Assembly: GCA_020723485.1 (NCBI GenBank)
Contig: DYIU01000001.1
Location: 599,380 to 663,379 of the forward strand
Reading direction: 5' to 3'
Length of the DNA stretch: 64,000 nucleotides
Source of the DNA: Acidimicrobium ferrooxidans
GTDB taxonomy: Bacteria; Actinomycetota; Geothermincolia; Fen-727; Anoxymicrobiaceae
How positions within the stretch are numbered: the stretch's first letter is position 1; every line of letters starts with the position of its first letter. Below the pieces are notes generated by a model. It saw only the letters and a program-made list of their open reading frames with translations. It had not been told where the DNA came from and ran no database searches. This document shows positions 1,914 to 15,200 of this stretch, in pieces. The position numbers and the translations under genes are program-made.

Positions 1914-3098
1914 TCAGTCCTCTATCTGGTGTGCGGACCACAGCACCTCGTGGTCCACGCCCGTCATCTCGACGCGGCAAGTATCGTCGCTCAGGAGCCC
2001 GAGCGCTATCTTGCGGATATCTCTCTTCCTCACGTCGCGTCCGCCGAGGCCCACCACGAAGCTCGAGATGTTCGGCGTCAGCGAGGCGCCGCAGAAGGCG
2101 GACCGTATCTCGGAGCAAAGGATGCCTTCCAGGCCGAGGGAGATGTCCTTCTCAACGACGCCCACGACGCGCGCATTGTGCAGGGCCTCGTGCAGCTGGT
2201 TGCGCGGGAACGGCCTCACCGTCCGCACCTTGATTATCCCCACGGGGTGGCCCTCGTCCCGGAGCTCGTCAACCACTTCTTTCATGGTCCCGAGGAGCGA
2301 GCCCATGGAGACGAGGAGGACCTCGGCGTCGGAGTCGCGATAGCCCTCCACCAGGTCCCCCCGGAACCTGCCGAACTCCCCCGCGAAGCGCGCCGCGGAA
2401 TCGACGATCGCCTGCGACGCCTTCTGCATCGCCTGGTGGAGGAGCATGCGTATCTCCATGTAGGCGTCCGGCCCGGCCATGGAGCCCAGCGTTATCGGGT
2501 CATCCGGGGTGAGGTAGAACCTCGGCTCGAAGGGCGGCAGGTAAGAGTCCACCTGCTCGGGTCCGGGGACGTCCACGGTCTCCGTGGCGTGCGTCAGTAT
2601 GTAGCCGTCCATGCACACCATCACAGGGATGTTCAGCCGCTCGGCGATCTCGAACGCCTGGATGTGCATGTCGCCGGCCTCCTGCACGTCCTCCGCGTAC
2701 ATCTGTATCCACCCGCAGTCGCGGAGAGACATGGAGTCCTGCTGGTCGTTCCATATGTTGATAGGCGCGCTCACGGCGCGGTTGGCGACCGTCATAACCA
2801 CCGGCAGCCTCATGCCGGCGATGTTGAACATAACCTCGGTCATCAGGAGAAGGCCCTGGGACGAGGTCGCGGTGTAGGCGCGGGCACCGGTGGCCGAAGC
2901 GCCGAGGACCACCGAGGCCGCGGTGAACTCGCTGTCCGCCAGCACGTAGCCGGCGTCGAGCCTGCCGTCTGCGAGCATGCGGGCCAGGTCCTCCACTATG
3001 TGGGTCTGCGGCGTTATGGGGTAGGCGCAGACGACCTTCGGCCTGCATAGCGCGACGAACTCCGCAACGGCCCGGGAGCCCTCGAGGATGCGTCTCAT
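1914..3098 (-). CDS. porA: Pyruvate:ferredoxin oxidoreductase alpha subunit
   Basis: 394 aa. The protein has the pyrimidine-binding domain with the CAYPITPQTHIVEDLA motif close to the N-terminus, the TSSQGLLLMTEV active-site segment, and the C-terminal transketolase-C-like domain with VSMGSLLGTMKEVVDELRDEG. It pairs with PorB to form the catalytic core. The start chosen is ATG 3098, which overlaps the porD stop in an ATGA, so translation is probably coupled. The open frame continues upstream as a GC-rich shadow over porD, which I rejected. Length matches stand-alone PorA proteins. Confidence 0.93.
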   Translation of the reverse strand: MRRILEGSRAVAEFVALCRPKVVCAYPITPQTHIVEDLARMLADGRLDAGYVLADSEFTAASVVLGASATGARAYTATSSQGLLLMTEVMFNIAGMRLPVVMTVANRAVSAPINIWNDQQDSMSLRDCGWIQMYAEDVQEAGDMHIQAFEIAERLNIPVMVCMDGYILTHATETVDVPGPEQVDSYLPPFEPRFYLTPDDPITLGSMAGPDAYMEIRMLLHQAMQKASQAIVDSAARFAGEFGRFRGDLVEGYRDSDAEVLLVSMGSLLGTMKEVVDELRDEGHPVGIIKVRTVRPFPRNQLHEALHNARVVGVVEKDISLGLEGILCSEIRSAFCGASLTPNISSFVVGLGGRDVRKRDIRKIALGLLSDDTCRVEMTGVDHEVLWSAHQIED

Positions 3099-3487
3099 CC
3101 GGCGCCACCCCCTCCGCCGGGGGCCGAGCCCCGCCGCTCGGCGGACTCGATCGGGCCGCCGTAGTTCTCGTCCGGGCGCTCGACCGGCTCGCCCTTCACC
3201 TCGGGGCCGGGGACCCTCTCGGGCCCTCCCTCGGCCTCGAGCACCATGTCGATATCGTCGACCGGGCACATCTCCGCGCAGATACCACAGCCCTTGCAGG
3301 CGTCCATGTCCGCGTCGAACTTCTTCTTGTCGATGCGGAAGACGGCCCCATCCGGGCACATCAGCTCGCAGTTCCTGCAGCCGATGCAGTCGACCTGTTT
3401 GTGGCGCGGCCTGTAGATGCGCCAGCCGGACTTCTTCTCCTGGCGGGTCGTCCCTGGCTGTACGACCACTCCGTAAACGGGTTTCAT
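3095..3487 (-). CDS. porD: Pyruvate:ferredoxin oxidoreductase delta subunit (2x[4Fe-4S] ferredoxin)
   Basis: 130 aa. Two CxxCxxxCP cluster motifs are present: CIGCRNCELMCP and CKGCGICAEMCP. These are the usual pair of [4Fe-4S] sites that pass electrons from the catalytic subunits to free ferredoxin. The C-terminus carries a tail of about 40 residues rich in Gly, Pro and Glu that is longer than in most PorD proteins and ends in a glycine run. Its ATG overlaps the end of porG (ATGA) and its stop overlaps the start of porA, so the three genes form a translationally coupled unit. Confidence 0.92.
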   Translation of the reverse strand: MKPVYGVVVQPGTTRQEKKSGWRIYRPRHKQVDCIGCRNCELMCPDGAVFRIDKKKFDADMDACKGCGICAEMCPVDDIDMVLEAEGGPERVPGPEVKGEPVERPDENYGGPIESAERRGSAPGGGGGAG

Positions 3488-4044
3488 GACAGCACGCTCC
3501 TGGTATCCTCGAAGGCTCGCCGCATCGCGATTATCTCCTTCTCCCCGAGCTCGCCCGGGTACCGTTCCCTGACGCTCTTCTCCAGGGCGTCGAGCCGTAT
3601 CTCGCCGGATGCGCCCGCGAAGGCCCCGACCATTATCGTGTTTATTATGGGCTTGCCGACTATCTCCAGTGCGAGCTGGGTCGCCGGCACTGTCACGGCC
3701 CGGTAGCGGTCAGGGACATCGAACTCAGAGGGCGGCTGTTCGGTGTTTATCACCACAAGGCCACCGTCCTTCAGCCCGTCCAGCAAGTCGTCCCCGGTGA
3801 AGAGACTGGCGTCCTGCACTATCAGGTAATCAGGCTCGTAGACCTGGCTCCTCAGCCGTATGGGGGCGTCGCTGATCCTCACGTAAGCCGTCACCGGCGC
3901 GCCGTGCCGCTCAGAGCCGAACATGGGAAATGCCTGGGCGTAGAGCCCGTCGGTGAACGCGGCCTCGGCCAGGAACTCGCTCGCGGTGACGTTGCCCTGT
4001 CCGCCCCTGCCGTGAATCCGGATCTCCTTTATCAGCGGTACCAC
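3484..4044 (-). CDS. porG: Pyruvate:ferredoxin oxidoreductase gamma subunit
   Basis: 186 aa. The N-terminus has the family signature IRIHGRGGQGNVTASEFLAEAA. It is followed by a conserved AFPMFGSERHGAPVTAYVRI segment and a Rossmann-like core. This subunit closes the CoA site in POR/KOR enzymes. It is the first gene of the por unit and starts with GTG at 4044 after a G-rich stretch that is only a weak ribosome-binding site. The preceding selenoprotein gene ends 33 nt upstream on the same strand, so co-transcription is possible. Confidence 0.92.
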   Translation of the reverse strand: MVPLIKEIRIHGRGGQGNVTASEFLAEAAFTDGLYAQAFPMFGSERHGAPVTAYVRISDAPIRLRSQVYEPDYLIVQDASLFTGDDLLDGLKDGGLVVINTEQPPSEFDVPDRYRAVTVPATQLALEIVGKPIINTIMVGAFAGASGEIRLDALEKSVRERYPGELGEKEIIAMRRAFEDTRSVLS

Positions 4045-4077: not shown

Positions 4078-4647
4078 TCAGTCCACCCACGGCCTCGCAC
4101 GCAGGGCCCAGTCGCTATCGGGATAGAGCTCCGTGAGCTCCGAGGCGGCCACGTCCAGGTGCGAGTCGTCATCGGTCGCCTTTCTCCTGGAGACGGCCCG
4201 GAAGTATATCGCCTCCGGGGCGAGCGCCGAGGCGGGATAGTCGCGGGCTACCGCATCGAACAGCTCTGCGGCCTCCGGGTAGTTGTGCGAGCCGAACGCC
4301 ACCCTGGCCCTGCCGAAGGACAGGTACGCCATGAAGATCTCGGGTGGCAGGAACCCGGTCACACGGTAGTGCTCGGCCGCTTTTCGGTCGGCGAAGACGA
4401 CGCTCGGAGTCCACACGACGTTGTACCGCCGGAGCAGCTTGCTCGCGCTGTCGTACGGTATCCGCCACGGGACGAAGTTCTGAGACACATACCGGGCGAC
4501 CTCTTCACTCGGGTACGTCACGGCACCCATCATGCGGCAGCCGCTTCACCTCTCCTTGAAGAAGTCGAGGAGCAGCGGCCTGGCTGACTCACCGGCGATG
4601 CGCAGCGCATCCGGCTCGCTTGCAGCCCAGCGGATGACCTCGGCCAT
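4078..4647 (-). CDS. Thioredoxin-like selenoprotein with C-terminal TPR-like helices (UGA = Sec34)
   Basis: Read with an in-frame UGA at 4548-4546, the gene encodes 189 aa. ATG 4647 is preceded by GGGAGGTGAC, a near-perfect ribosome-binding site. The first 33 codons encode a thioredoxin-like N-terminus ending in LLLDFFKER. UGA follows, then SGCRMMGAV, giving U-S-G-C exactly where thioredoxins have C-x-x-C. Downstream, NFVPWRIPYD and the cis-Pro loop VVWTPSVVFADR are classic thioredoxin-fold elements. Residues from about 105 on form TPR-like helices (YPEAAELFDAVARDYP). Without readthrough, the downstream part would start at an ATG with no ribosome-binding site and lack the active site. A hairpin that could act as SECIS lies just after the UGA. 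The role is probably thiol-disulfide or peroxide redox chemistry. The alternative is a point-mutated pseudogene or a TGC-to-TGA error. Confidence 0.82.
4522..4542 (-). promoter_or_regulatory. Candidate bacterial SECIS hairpin of the thioredoxin-like selenoprotein
   Basis: In the mRNA, 3 nt after the UGA, GGC pairs with GCC and CC with GG around a 2x2 internal loop (UG/GU). The 7-nt apical loop is GCAUGAU, with G as its first base, as preferred by bacterial SECIS elements. An alternative fold pairs GCGG with CCGC immediately after the UGA. No folding program was run, so only the position and pairing are directly seen. Confidence 0.45.
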
Positions 4648-4734: not shown

Positions 4735-6354
4735 TCAGGCGGCCTCGGGGCCGCTCGCCGGAGCGCCGGCCCGGCTCAGGGTGAACCAGAAGATGGAACC
4801 CCCGCCGTCCCTCGGCTCGCAGGCGACACGGCCTCCGTGGCCGTCGACGATCTGCCTCGCGAGGTACAACCCGAGGCCCAGGCCCACGCTGGAGTGGTGA
4901 TTGACCTCCTCCACCTGGTAGAAGCGGTCGAACACGAGCCGGCGGGACTCCTCGGGGATTCCGATGCCCCTGTCCAGGACACGGACGGTGACCGTGTTCC
5001 CGTCGCCCACCGCCTCTAACTCGATGTGTGACGACTCCGGGGAGAACTTGACGGCGTTGTCGAGCAGGATGGCGAGCAGCTGGACTATCTTCTCGGGGTC
5101 CGCCTTTACGTCCGGGTCCCCTTCGGCGACCCAGGTTATCTCGTTGGCGTTGCCGGCGGCCTTCATGTCAGACGCCGCCGCGGCGAGGAGCGGCTCCAAC
5201 CGGACGTCCGTCATGTTGAAGGTGAACCTGCCCTGCTCCACCAGCGAGACCTGCATCAGCTCCTCGACGAAGTGGGTGAGCCTGTCGATGGAGATGTTCA
5301 GCGCGTCCAGTATCTTGTGCAGGTCCTCCGGCTCCATCCTGTCGAGGTAGCCGTCCAGCATGGTCGTGTATCCCTTGACGACGCTGACGGGGTGGCGAAG
5401 CTCGTGCGAGGCTACTGTCAGGAAGTCAGCGAGCCTCTCGGCCCGCTCCTTCAGCTCCGCCTCCGCCTGCATACGCTCGATGACCTCCTGTTTGAGCTGG
5501 ACGTTCGTCTCGGCGAGTTCCGCGGTGCGCTCCTCCACCAGCTGCTCGAGCTGCTCCCGGTACCTCCGAAGGCGCTCTTCGTTGTGCTTGCGCTGGGTCA
5601 CGTCGCGAGAGTTGAAGACGATGCCGGCCACGGCCGGGTCTCCCAGCAGGTTCCTGCCGACCCCTTCCATGATGCGCCACGGGCCGTCCTTGTGCCTGAA
5701 ACGGTATTCCGCGACGGCGGTGGCGCCCGGGGTCTCCACCGAGCGGGTTATTATGCCCATGATGCGCGGCAGGTCTTCGGGGTGGATGAAATCGAAGAAG
5801 CTCCTCCCGACAATCTCCGAGGGTTTGTGCCCAAGGATCCGCTCGACGGATGAGCTCTCGAAGAGCACGGTGCCGTCGGCGCTTATCAGCATGATGACGT
5901 CGCTCGACTTCTCGATCAGAGACCGGAAGTAAGCCTCCCTCCGAAGGAGCTCGTCCTGGGCGCGCTTGAGGTCTATCTCGACCAGGGCTTTTGAGACGGC
6001 CTCCTCCAGCCTCGAGCGGAGGTTGGCATCCTTGACCACGTAGCCCGACGCGCTGGACCGGAACGAGCGCACGGCGGTCTCCTCGTCGCCGTGACCGGTT
6101 ACCATGATCACCCGCGGCCCCTCGTCCTGTCGCGAGAGTTCCTCCAGCAGGTCCACCCCTCGGCCGTCAGGCAGCATGAAATCGAGCGCCACTATGTCGA
6201 AACTCTCGGAGCCGGTCAGCCGACGAGCGGATTCGCAGTCGGGAGCGGTCTGGACGTCGAAGTCGAACCGCCGCTCGAGCATCTTCTTGAGATTGCGGGC
6301 CATGTCCGGGTCGTCTTCAACGACCAGCGCCTTCAGCCGCTCAGTCTCAGCCAA
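4735..6354 (-). CDS. Receiver-PAS-histidine kinase
   Basis: 539 aa from TTG 6354. Domain order is a receiver domain (about 7-125; VVEDDPD acidic pocket, ALDFMLPDG phospho-acceptor Asp, MVTGHG), a PAS domain (about 135-260), a coiled coil, a HisKA domain with SHELRHP phospho-acceptor His, and a HATPase domain (ILLDNAVKF N-box, DRGIGIP, GLGLGLYLARQIV). No membrane segment is visible, so it should be cytoplasmic. TTG 6354 follows GGAGGAATCGG and overlaps the stop of the preceding kinase gene (TTGGCTGA), implying translational coupling. A GTG at 6378 has no ribosome-binding site. The receiver-first order suggests that another kinase phosphorylates it. Confidence 0.88.
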   Translation of the reverse strand: MAETERLKALVVEDDPDMARNLKKMLERRFDFDVQTAPDCESARRLTGSESFDIVALDFMLPDGRGVDLLEELSRQDEGPRVIMVTGHGDEETAVRSFRSSASGYVVKDANLRSRLEEAVSKALVEIDLKRAQDELLRREAYFRSLIEKSSDVIMLISADGTVLFESSSVERILGHKPSEIVGRSFFDFIHPEDLPRIMGIITRSVETPGATAVAEYRFRHKDGPWRIMEGVGRNLLGDPAVAGIVFNSRDVTQRKHNEERLRRYREQLEQLVEERTAELAETNVQLKQEVIERMQAEAELKERAERLADFLTVASHELRHPVSVVKGYTTMLDGYLDRMEPEDLHKILDALNISIDRLTHFVEELMQVSLVEQGRFTFNMTDVRLEPLLAAAASDMKAAGNANEITWVAEGDPDVKADPEKIVQLLAILLDNAVKFSPESSHIELEAVGDGNTVTVRVLDRGIGIPEESRRLVFDRFYQVEEVNHHSSVGLGLGLYLARQIVDGHGGRVACEPRDGGGSIFWFTLSRAGAPASGPEAA

Positions 6355-8965
6355 CCGATTCCTCCGCCGTTTCGTCACCGTCCGCGCGACGCACGTCTAC
6401 GGTGAAACGGAAAATGGACCCTCCGCCGGCGCGTGGCTCCACCCAGATGTTGCCGCCGTGCGCTTCAGCGATCTGTCTTGCTATGTACAGTCCGAGGCCG
6501 AGGCCGACCTTGGAGTGGTGGGCCGCGTCCTCAACCTGGTAGAAGCGCTCGAATATGCTCTCGCGGTCGGCCTCCGGGATTCCGTTTCCGCGGTCCAGCA
6601 CCGATACGACCAGCATGTCTTCGTCCCGCTCCGTCTCTACCTCCACCGGACCGTCGGGCGGTGAGAACTTCACGGCGTTGTCGAGCAGGATGTTGAGGAG
6701 CTGCACGAACTTCTCGGGGTCCACCCAGACGTCCTGCAGGCCGTCGCTCACGTTCAAAGAGAGCTCGTTCTCGATGCCCATCACCTTCAGGTCGGCAACC
6801 GCGGTCTGCACAAGCTGACCGAGGTCTATGGGCTGCCTCTCGATCAGCACCCTCCCCTGCTCTATCCTCGAGATGTCGAGCAGCTGCTCGACGTACCTGG
6901 TCAGCCTGTCGGTCGACATGTTGACGTCCTGAAGCAGGTCGTGGACCTGCTCGCTCGGCATCTCGTCGATGTACGCGTTGAGGATGCTCGCGTAGCCCTT
7001 GACGATGGTGATGGGGTGGCGCAGCTCGTGAGACGCTACCACCAGGAAGTCACGGAGGCGCTCAGCCCTCTCCTTGAGGTCCTCCTCGTACGCTTTCTCA
7101 CGCGTGATGTCTATGAGCGAGACCGCGGTCGCGTCCAGCCCGGGCATGAAGCCCATGTTCGCGAGCATGTTCAGGACCTCACCGTCCTTGGAGTGGATGT
7201 TACACTCGAAATGGATGGGCGATTCCTTCCGGGCCCCCTGGAGGTCCTGGTGGTACTCGCGGAAGCTTTCCGCGCTCTCCACCGTGAGAAAATCGGTGAA
7301 GTTGGTCTTGCCGACGAGCTCGTCCGAACCGTAGCCGGTGATCCTCTCGAACTCCTGGTTGAGGAAAGTAATGGACGCGTCCGTATCGACTATGCACATA
7401 GCTGTCCCGGTTGATTCGAAAACCGTACGGTACCGCTCCTCGGATTCCTTCAGCATCTCCTCCGCGCGGCGGGACTCGGTGATATCTATACCGGTGGTTA
7501 TCACGTACTCGACGCTTCCACCCGCGCCCGTCAGGGTGGCGTTCGACAGTGAGAGCAGCCTCCGGCCGCCCTGTTTCGTGACCCATCTCTCCTCGTAGCC
7601 TTCGGCCTCCGAGCCCGCGAGCAGGTCCTGGAAGACCGAGCGCGATACCCTGGCGTCCCTGGGTTCCACCAGGGTGTCCCACAGCCTCTTCCCGGCGACC
7701 TCCTCGAAGCGGTAGCCGGTGGTCTCTTCAGCGGTACGGTTGAACAGCACCACGCGCCCCTGGGCCTCCCGAACGACCACGAGCGCTCCCGCGGTATCGA
7801 TGACCTTGGAGATGAAGTCCCGGTCTTTCTTCTGAGCTTCCTCGACGCGTTTCCTCTCGGTTATATCCTGTGCGAAGATGACCACCCTGTTGACCTTGCC
7901 GGTCGGCCCGAAGAGCGGAAAGACGTAGTTGTCGAAGTAAAGGCCCTCGTACTCCTCGTCGTACCGGATGGACGACCCCGTCCTCATGACCTCGCGGATC
8001 CGGGTGTGCAGGCTGGTCCTGACCGCCTCCGGCAGCATGTCGAGCAGGTTCGAGCCGAGGACTTCCTCCTGCGTGCCGCCCAGCCTCTCGGCGCCGGTGT
8101 CGTTTATCGCTATCAGGTTGCCCGACGTGTCTATCATCATCGCCGAGCCTATCGGCACGTTGAGCAGCGAACGCGCCGTCTCCTCGCTGTCCCGCAGGGC
8201 GGCTTCCATCTGCTTGCTGGCGGTGATGTCCACGAAACTCTCGAGGAGGTGCTCGCGCCCATCGAGGTTCACGGGCGTGACCGTCTTGAGGACGGTCAGC
8301 GTCTCCCCGGTCGAGCGGCGCAGGAACACCTCAGCCCGGTCCAGCTCGTGCCCGAGGTCCGTGACCGGGCACTCGCCCTTGCGAGCAGGGCAGGCGAGCC
8401 CGTAGCAGGGCATGCCCAGCACCCTCTCCCGCGGGGCGCTCAACATCCGCAGCGCCGCGGTGTTCGCGTCGACTATCCGGTGGGTCTCGGGGTCGATGAT
8501 GAGGACACCGGTCGCGACCGACTCGATTATCTTGCGCAGGCGCCCCTCGCTCTCGATGAGCCTGGCCTCCGCCACGATGCGCTCGTCGTGCTCCTCGGAC
8601 TCCCTGATAGCTCGCCCTATGGCGGGCGGCAGCCGGGACAGGTCGACCTTGAGCACGTAATCCGCGGCGCCGCCCCGCATCGCGTCGATCGCCAGCTCCT
8701 CGCCCATCGCCCCGGAGACGAATATGAAGGGGACGCCAGGGGCCTCCTCCACGGTTGTGGCCAGCGCCGAGAGGCCGTCCAGGTCCGGCAGCCAGTAATC
8801 GGATAGCACGACGTCAGGCTTGAACTCACGGAGCAGGCTCTCGAACTCCAGCTGCGTCTCCGCCCTCACGAGTTCGAAAGTGACGCCCGCCCTGGCGAGC
8901 TCTTCCTCGACCGACCTTGCATCTTCGGGGTCCGCCTCGAGCATCAGGATGCGAAGCTTCTTCAA
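6347..8965 (-). CDS. Receiver-PAS(x4)-histidine kinase
   Basis: 872 aa, starting at TTG 8965 after AGGGAAC. It has a receiver domain (about 1-125, with VVLSDYWLPD), four PAS domains (about 140-630), a HisKA domain with SHELRHP, and a HATPase domain (ILLDNAVKF, DRGNGIP, GLGLGLYIARQIA). The first PAS has a three-cysteine segment, GMPCYGLACPARKGECP, of the kind seen in redox or metal-sensing PAS domains. The kinase core is clearly paralogous to the next gene downstream, with which it overlaps. Together they could form a cytoplasmic phosphorelay. No dedicated DNA-binding response regulator is adjacent. Confidence 0.88.
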   Translation of the reverse strand: MKKLRILMLEADPEDARSVEEELARAGVTFELVRAETQLEFESLLREFKPDVVLSDYWLPDLDGLSALATTVEEAPGVPFIFVSGAMGEELAIDAMRGGAADYVLKVDLSRLPPAIGRAIRESEEHDERIVAEARLIESEGRLRKIIESVATGVLIIDPETHRIVDANTAALRMLSAPRERVLGMPCYGLACPARKGECPVTDLGHELDRAEVFLRRSTGETLTVLKTVTPVNLDGREHLLESFVDITASKQMEAALRDSEETARSLLNVPIGSAMMIDTSGNLIAINDTGAERLGGTQEEVLGSNLLDMLPEAVRTSLHTRIREVMRTGSSIRYDEEYEGLYFDNYVFPLFGPTGKVNRVVIFAQDITERKRVEEAQKKDRDFISKVIDTAGALVVVREAQGRVVLFNRTAEETTGYRFEEVAGKRLWDTLVEPRDARVSRSVFQDLLAGSEAEGYEERWVTKQGGRRLLSLSNATLTGAGGSVEYVITTGIDITESRRAEEMLKESEERYRTVFESTGTAMCIVDTDASITFLNQEFERITGYGSDELVGKTNFTDFLTVESAESFREYHQDLQGARKESPIHFECNIHSKDGEVLNMLANMGFMPGLDATAVSLIDITREKAYEEDLKERAERLRDFLVVASHELRHPITIVKGYASILNAYIDEMPSEQVHDLLQDVNMSTDRLTRYVEQLLDISRIEQGRVLIERQPIDLGQLVQTAVADLKVMGIENELSLNVSDGLQDVWVDPEKFVQLLNILLDNAVKFSPPDGPVEVETERDEDMLVVSVLDRGNGIPEADRESIFERFYQVEDAAHHSKVGLGLGLYIARQIAEAHGGNIWVEPRAGGGSIFRFTVDVRRADGDETAEESVG

Positions 8966-12277: not shown

Positions 12278-15200
12278 TTGAACGGCGACGAACCTCTGGA
12301 CGGCACGCAGGCAGAGCTGTCCGACGAATACCTGGAGGAAGCGGTCTTCTTCGTCGTGAACTGGCATGCCGCGACGGTGAACGTCAGGCTGTACCCACCC
12401 ACCAGCTCGATGGTGACCGACACGGTGCAGAAGGCACGCGAGCACCTGGAGACGCTCTTCGATGAGGAGGACGTATTCAGCGTAAGCGTGCTGGAGAACA
12501 GCCTCCTGGTCAACGACGTGCGTCTCGAGGAGCTGACCCAGCAGAAAGCGCCCATCAAGTCCTTTGTGCAGTGGATGAACGAGCGCGGTCTTACCAACCT
12601 GGAGTTCACCAGGGGCGTCACCCCCGAGGAGATGTCAACGGTGTTCGAGGTCCTTTCGACGGCTGCGGAGAAGGACCACCGCCAGAACCTCTCCGAGGTC
12701 CTGGTGGAGCGGGGCGTCACCAACGTGACGATCAACCAGCGAGTCTACGTGGCCATATCGACGGGGGAAGATTACGAGGATGGCATACGCCGGGCGTCGC
12801 CGCTGGACGCGTTGAAGGACGAGCTGCTGATGCGCTACCTGATGGGCAAGGTGGACCTCGGCTCGGTCGAGGACAAGGAGCTCGTCGGCGTGCTCTCGGA
12901 CCCGGGGAAGGTTGGAGGCCTGCTCTCCACGTTCATCAGGGAAGAGGGCAGCGAGGGCGGAGTGCTGGTGAGGAGCCAGAAGGCCGAGGAGGCGCTCAAC
13001 CGCCTGATGGACATGGTCGACCAGGTCGAGGACGAATCGCTGCGCGCGGTCCTCTCGGACCAGATAGGCGGCATCATCGCCGAGATGACGCCGAAAGAGA
13101 TGACCTCGATGCTGACGGGAGAGGCCCCGGAGAACCTGAACATCGGCCGCGTTCGCGAGAGGGTGATCACCATGCTCGCGGACAACCAGCTCCTGGAGAT
13201 GGTCGACTCGCTCATCGACGAATACCAGGAGATGAAGGACGAGTCGGACGAGCTCGAGACCGAGTGGCAGAAGGAGAAACTCCGGAACCTGAACGAGCTG
13301 CTGGTAGAGGTCCGCGAAGAGCGCGGCATCGAGATAAGCGACGTCATCGACCAGAAGCTCGAGACAGCGGGCATTGCGGAGGAGCGCGATCCTGAGACGG
13401 GGCGACGGGTGCTGTCCGCGTACCAGCTGCTGGGCGGGCCCCTCGAGGAGGAGTTCGTCGAGCTCGCCGAAGGCATAGACCAGACAGTCTCCCAGCAGAT
13501 ACAGCGTCTCTATGCCATGGAGGAGACGGAGCTCGCCGCCGGCATGCTCGAGAAGCTGGCGGACAACCTCAAGCAGGATTCACCGAAGATAAGGCGGTTC
13601 GCGGCGACACTCGTCAAGGACACGCTCGAGGGGCTCGAGCGGGAGTACCAGCTGGTGGCCGCGGGCGCGCTCGAGGCCACGCTAATCGAGGACGTCGAAG
13701 CGGAGCAGGATTACGCGGCCTATATCCCCCAGGTGGACGCCGTCGCCGTGCTCGCGCGGGCTTACATGCAGGAGGGCATGGCCGGCAGGGCCACCGACAT
13801 CCTCGATCTCCTGAAGGAGCAGTCCCGGGAGGAGTCAGGCAAGGGCCCGGAGCTCATGAAGCACGCGGCCACCGTCCTCGAGAAGCTGACCGGGCCGGAG
13901 GGCATGGTCGACGTCCAGGCCCTGCTCATGGAGGACGACGAGGAGAAGCGCGCCAACACGGTGCGCGCGCTGGCGGGGCTGGGGCCTTCCGCGCTCTCCC
14001 CGCTGGTGGACATGGTCAAGGACCGGGGCCAGATAGACCTGCGCGACCGCGCGCTCGAGGCGATAATCGAGGCCGGCCCGGTGGGCATCGAGGCGCTGCT
14101 GGCCGAGCTCAAGGCTGAGAACCCCTGGTACATCTACAGGAACGTGTTGAACGTAGTCGCCGAGCTGAAGCTGACCGAGGCCGTGGAAGAAGTCGGCGAG
14201 ATGGTCAACCATCCTGACGAGAGGATCCGGCGCGAAGCCATAAGGAGCCTCGCGAGAATCGGCTCACGTGACTCAGTCAGCGTCGTGATAGGCGCGGCCA
14301 ACGATCCCAGCCCCGCCGTGAGACGCACCGCGGTCCGCGTCCTCGGCATGTTCGGTGATTCTTCCGTTGCAGGTTTCCTGCTTGACATCATTAACGCGCA
14401 GGGCCCGCGCGGCCGGGAGGAGGACCAGGCCGTGGTAGAGGCGGCGTGCCTCGCGCTGGGGGACCTGAAGGACACCGCCTACGTGCCGCAGCTGGTGGAC
14501 CTCCTCGGAAAGGGAGGGCTCTTCAAGAAAGCCCGACCCGATGAGATAAGGGCGGCCGCGTGCATAGCGCTGAGCACGATCGGGGACGAGAGCATTGTTC
14601 CCGTGATCGAGAAGGCTACGAAGGACCCCAGCATGATGGTCAGGACGAGCGCGGAGAAAGCCCTTCGAAAGCTCACAGGCGGGCTGACCGCACCCGAGCC
14701 TGTCGCGCTCGAGGAGGAGAGGCCGGCTGAGGCGGCCGAAGCTCCCGTGGAAGCGCCGGCGTACCGGCCGGCCCCGCATCCTGAGGCAGCCGCGGCCGCG
14801 CCAGCCGTAGAGGCTCCGCCCGAGCCCGCGGCTGAGGCGCCCCCGCCGCCCGTGCCGGAGCCGCTTGAGCCGCACGCCGAAGCGCCACCACCATACGAGG
14901 CGCCCCGAGTGCCTTCTCCACCCGAATGGGTAGACATGCCTGTCCAGCCTTCGCAGGTGGAGACGGGCATGGAGCCCGGTGCTGAGACTACCCCATCGCC
15001 GGAGGCGCCGGAGCTGGGCCCCGCGACCATTGAGGGCTACGCCGCTCAGCCACCGGAACCGGCCCCCCAGGCCCCGCCGCCCGCGCAGGCTCCGCAACCC
15101 TCCGGGGAATACCTTCCCCCGGAGATACCGCCGGATGACATATATATAGACAACCTCGCGGGCGAGGAGGACACCCTGTACATCCCGGAGGAGGCAGAGG

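Follow-up and report, generated by a model that had tools for sequence, protein, structure and literature searches.

The minus-strand gene at positions 4078 to 4647 of the window, by which we mean the whole 64,000-nucleotide stretch of DNA analysed here, very probably encodes a selenoprotein, in which SelB and a downstream hairpin would insert selenocysteine (Sec) at codon 34 to yield a 189-residue thioredoxin-fold oxidoreductase with a TPR tail. Sec insertion at this UGA is supported as well as sequence comparison permits, and the UGA-containing genes are almost certainly members of a widespread Sec-thioredoxin family with a TPR tail that spans two bacterial phyla. An initial annotation of the window had proposed a probable new selenoprotein at this site, and the Sec reading now draws support from the decoding machinery of the genome, conservation of the codon, and a covarying hairpin.

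Results

The frame that opens at ATG 4647 and closes at the terminal TGA at 4080-4078 contains one internal stop, a TGA at 4548-4546 that forms codon 34, and is preceded by the ribosome-binding site GGGAGGTGA (4657-4649), an element the initial annotation had already recognized. The internal TGA occupies the first position of the thioredoxin C-x-x-C motif (U34-S-G-C37), and the resolving cysteine, encoded by TGC at codon 37 (4539-4537), is near-invariant across the family. Translated through the UGA, the 189-residue product matches PF13098 (Thioredoxin_2, E 3e-12) without a break from residue 19 to residue 109, in agreement with the earlier claims that a lone TGA replaces the first Cys of the motif and that thioredoxin homology continues past it unshifted; the homologues, too, show conservation both before and after the TGA. 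The longest conventional frame, which begins at ATG 4533 and comprises 151 codons, is missing the active site.

The first 110 residues (4318-4647) form a DsbD-gamma-like thioredoxin domain, as judged from PF13098 and DsbD-gamma structures, and residues 111-189 (4081-4317) form a helical tail of the TPR type, with TPR profiles matching most family members. An AlphaFold model built from a 45-row alignment (pLDDT 97.2, pTM 0.92) shows about five helices C-terminal to a thioredoxin fold, and the TPR-like extension described at the outset is thus borne out by profiles and model alike. In profile comparisons the first domain is closest to DsbD-gamma and 2kuc, and the second to the TPRs of CpoB/YbgF type. 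The first Foldseek match is Escherichia coli CnoX/YbbN, in a loose superposition, and most of the others cover the thioredoxin domain alone. A PF13098 score over the cut-off, a redox motif with two-residue spacing (U34-x-x-C37), an invariant T80-P81 at the cis-proline position, and a pLDDT of 97 place the protein among the thioredoxin-fold oxidoreductases. The lack of an apparent signal peptide makes a cytoplasmic location probable.

Downstream of the UGA, a SECIS-type hairpin is predicted at 4528-4511, with a 6 bp stem (4528-4523 with 4516-4511), which a seventh U-G pair (4529-4510) extends in the window sequence, and a six-base loop, CGUGAC (4522-4517). The hairpin begins 17 nt and its loop 23 nt past the UGA. 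The initial annotation had described a hairpin with G first in its loop; the hairpin is there, but the G stands at loop position 2, followed by U, and the loop lies 23 nt away. The published bacterial SECIS model calls for a loop of 3-9 nt, a stem of 4-16 bp, G in one of the first two loop positions, a spacing of 16-37 nt, and an energy of -7.5 kcal/mol or lower (PMC13188914), and the window hairpin, with a loop of 6, a stem of 6-7 bp, G at position 2, a distance of 23 nt, and -15.1 kcal/mol, fits it throughout. An Rfam scan of the region returned one chance match only, below threshold. The single-sequence folding energy of the window hairpin is mildly unusual (z -1.9); as a criterion this measure was non-discriminating (z -1.9 to +1.5) and was set aside in favor of comparison between genes.

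In family numbering, which starts at the first base of the UGA (columns 1-3), the stem joins columns 21-26 to columns 33-38 around a six-base loop whose second base is always G and whose third is always U. Of the 38 UGA genes, 37 form all six pairs with standard base pairing, and the stem is found in none of the 10 TGC genes. Each gene was also recoded synonymously according to codon usage in the family; across 2000 such simulations the stem stayed intact in 2.0 genes on average and in 7 at most. Wherever Thr is encoded at columns 31-33 (36/36 cases), the codon is ACG, compared with 21% in the rest of these genes; the two genes with Ser in place of Thr use TCG, so that the paired G is kept. 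At pair 23-36 the combinations AU, GC, and GU are seen, and at pair 24-35 the combinations UA, AU, and GU; the covariation score of these two pairs was not reached by any shuffle, and sliding the partner destroys it. The exception, L022 (G008), has an alternative hairpin in place of the shared stem. On this comparative evidence the predicted hairpin is under selection and far above chance, so that folding of the sequence after the UGA, a check proposed with the original observation, gives a structure that fits the SECIS model and covaries at two pairs.

Full-length homologues with TGA at the same codon are present in three genera of the same family as the source genome, at 60, 50, and 36% identity. 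A search of the phylum Actinomycetota added G291 and G058, two more distant TGA forms with the motif UIGC, as well as G298, a TGC form with C-x-x-S. Querying genome contigs with the single protein gave no match; a four-row alignment found the named relatives, which are metagenome-assembled genomes of Actinomycetota, Desulfobacterales, and Desulfobulbales. On the Desulfobacterota side, a full-length or near full-length match with one internal TGA occurs in 75 of 395 genomes, a count in which the position of the TGA was checked only for fetched sequences, and eleven full-length matches among the 395 genomes have no internal TGA. Read codon by codon, the fetched sequences contain the TGA in 38 distinct genes (6 from Actinomycetota and 32 from Desulfobacterota), whereas 12 other full-length homologues have TGC (10) or have lost the residue (2), and no TAA or TAG occupies this column in any of the sequences so read. 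The in-frame UGA is thus aligned with the Cys of homologues, as expected of a bacterial selenoprotein and as the alignment suggested in the initial annotation was meant to reveal. Between close pairs, third-position changes dominate, a pattern characteristic of coding sequence.

In a tree of the family the UGA forms group together, with two long-branched Cys rows, L124 and L129, placed among them at weak support. The four-row Actinomycetota clade that includes the window stands apart from the pair G291 and G058; these two are placed within Desulfobacterota, so that horizontal transfer is likely for them. The two homologues that have lost the catalytic residue, L128 and L134, are otherwise full-length, a hint that part of the family may act without redox chemistry. 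One locus, L135 (G711), carries two full-length UGA paralogues, at 6570-7133 and 13320-13871, 6.7 kb apart.

The source genome encodes the complete Sec decoding apparatus, the absence of which would have counted against the original proposal. selD (TIGR00476, 5e-108) lies on a different contig from the thioredoxin-TPR gene, together with selA (TIGR00474, 1e-171), selB (TIGR00475, 5e-110), and a tRNA-Sec with anticodon TCA, in the order selD, a YedF/TusA-like gene (so named from its sequence alone), selA, selB, tRNA-Sec. This selD has an in-frame UGA at its own Sec position (AGUAAK; L017 4996-4998, contig C5), and a hairpin with a G near the start of its loop follows that UGA also. Either selB or selA was found in 39/39 UGA-form genomes tested, compared with 5/10 genomes with a non-UGA form. 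selB exceeds the cut-off in 38 of the 39, and the remaining genome (G685) has selA; both genes are missing from five of the ten non-UGA genomes (Fisher p 0.0007 on selB, for genomes that are not independent and that include G298, only 75% complete, so that absence there is weaker evidence). Three genomes (G032, G312, and G428) each have two selB-model matches over the cut-off, the second in G312 being at a contig end.

The genes for pyruvate:ferredoxin oxidoreductase follow on the same strand: porG (gamma subunit, 3484-4044, PRK08534 1e-71, over cut-off) 33 bp downstream, then porD (delta, ferredoxin-like subunit, 3095-3487, TIGR02179, over cut-off), porA (alpha, 1914-3098, start placed by comparison with L077), and porB (beta, 1002-1904, PRK11865 2e-107). 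The thioredoxin-TPR gene is directly upstream of porGDAB in the source genome, G003, and G004. Upstream of it, at 4735-8965 of the window, are two hybrid sensor kinases with response regulator, PAS, and histidine kinase domains, which are also present in G003 (L077), so that the locus may be under redox-responsive control. Elsewhere the neighbors differ: dnaX-recR adjoins the gene in G291 and G058, and aat and selA adjoin it in two Desulfobacterota, L079 and L080, which are close relatives, so that this linkage represents one event. Among the reference proteins tried, no neighbor recurred in 20 further Desulfobacterota neighborhoods, and as porGDAB was absent from these 20, its linkage was rejected as a family-wide rule. 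The proposed position upstream of pyruvate:ferredoxin oxidoreductase is therefore correct, but a role dedicated to that enzyme is not supported in general. With the linkage confined to three related Actinomycetota genera and different neighbors outside them, it is a lineage-specific hint and not a guide to the general function of the family.

Discussion

Defining the place of this protein among known systems requires comparison with several partial relatives. Among well-characterised thioredoxin domains, the gamma domain of DsbD (1uc7, 2fwe) is nearest in both profile and fold; however, it resides in the periplasm as one part of a membrane protein and carries C-x-x-C, whereas the family protein is free-standing, has a TPR tail, and would carry Sec. 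The best NCBIfam match is to the C-terminal thioredoxin part of the rhodanese/DsbD-fusion selenoprotein TsoB (NF045694, E 6.5e-12), at 44 bits against a cut-off of 805, and TsoB differs in its architecture and in its UxxxxU motif. No NCBIfam model reached its cut-off; with 45 aligned members the same families recur, and none matches the first member over its full length. In architecture the modelled protein resembles a chaperedoxin, E. coli CnoX/YbbN (PDB 3qou), which also has a thioredoxin domain followed by a TPR tail. The superposition is loose, with a TM of 0.42 on the query, the profile comparison is weak (hhalign probability 47%), and CnoX has SxxC where the family has UxxC and a TPR domain of ten helices as opposed to about five (PMC8129009). 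The difference in TPR size and the weak homology led us to reject membership in the CnoX family.

The most serious alternative accepts the selenoprotein but holds that its family has been described before, as the PF13098 UxxC protein WP_011366075 in a 2026 inventory of 119 selenoprotein families (PMC13188914, Table 1), and as the 'Thiol:disulfide interchange protein' reported in 2006 from Syntrophus and Geobacter (PMC1794560). The Pfam domain and the U-x-x-C motif are identical, and both genera were formerly classed as Deltaproteobacteria. We nonetheless consider this unlikely. The 2006 family comprised three sequences only, with the TPR tail unmentioned, and WP_011366075, compared here by its description, is likewise described without one. 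That description is fitted by short thioredoxin-only proteins of two selB-positive Actinomycetota, L055 (UPSC, UGA at 1591-1593) and L072 (UGAC, UGA at 1588-1590), which have UGA at the same active-site position, signal-like N-termini, and no shared hairpin, and which may constitute a different selenoprotein family. NCBIfam models cover none of the thioredoxin-TPR family, the 2026 inventory contains no thioredoxin-TPR selenoprotein (PMC13188914), and a literature search, with most subscription papers outside its reach, found no selenoprotein with a TPR domain. The family appears to be uncatalogued and, by description, is probably distinct from WP_011366075.

Explanations that dispense with Sec fare far worse. 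The UGA could be a true stop, with reinitiation at ATG 4533, 12 nt beyond it, producing the thioredoxin-TPR part from the 151-codon frame as the second of two peptides. This is very improbable, as it would split the thioredoxin fold and forfeit the catalytic position in every species, and it leaves the hairpin, the TGC relatives, and the correlation with selA and selB unexplained. In some lineages UGA is recoded to residues such as Trp or Cys, and a variant code or misreading tRNA of this kind might be invoked; it is still harder to credit here, where TGA also ends the gene itself and acts as an ordinary stop codon, and where the hairpin and the selA/selB link indicate Sec specifically. Finally, although the window belongs to a draft assembly and was compared with other species only, sequencing error is ruled out by the recurrence of TGA at one codon in 38 distinct genes, and with the frame open and conserved on both sides and the third-position pattern of its close pairs, a pseudogene can be dismissed with it.

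Taking the gene to encode a selenoprotein, we envisage that SelB carrying Sec-tRNA(Sec) would bind the hairpin 17 nt downstream of the UGA, so that Sec is inserted at codon 34 in place of termination. By analogy, the selenol of Sec34 may attack a disulfide or oxidised thiol of the substrate and form a selenenylsulfide with Cys37, and a cellular reductase would then reset the active site. The TPR tail could select client proteins in an arrangement like that of CnoX, the putative role of the enzyme being thiol-disulfide or repair chemistry on such clients. Pyruvate:ferredoxin oxidoreductase, encoded immediately downstream, is a plausible client in the source lineage, with other clients to be expected elsewhere. 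A more ambitious proposal, which we advance only tentatively, is that these proteins form a Sec chaperedoxin-like family of anaerobes, common among Desulfobacterota and tied to porGDAB in Actinomycetota, in which the TPR tail holds clients as the selenol repairs their oxidised cysteines.

Ordinary gene finding trims members of this family to about 151 residues, with loss of the catalytic residue. Recognition of the UGA as a Sec codon enlarges the bacterial selenoproteome by a sizeable, well-supported family, and the constancy of hairpin position and shape over two phyla provides a natural series for testing the SECIS requirements of bacterial SelB. The joining of a TPR tail to a Sec thioredoxin is suggestive of redox repair directed at clients in anaerobes, for which the linkage to porGDAB offers a concrete first candidate client.
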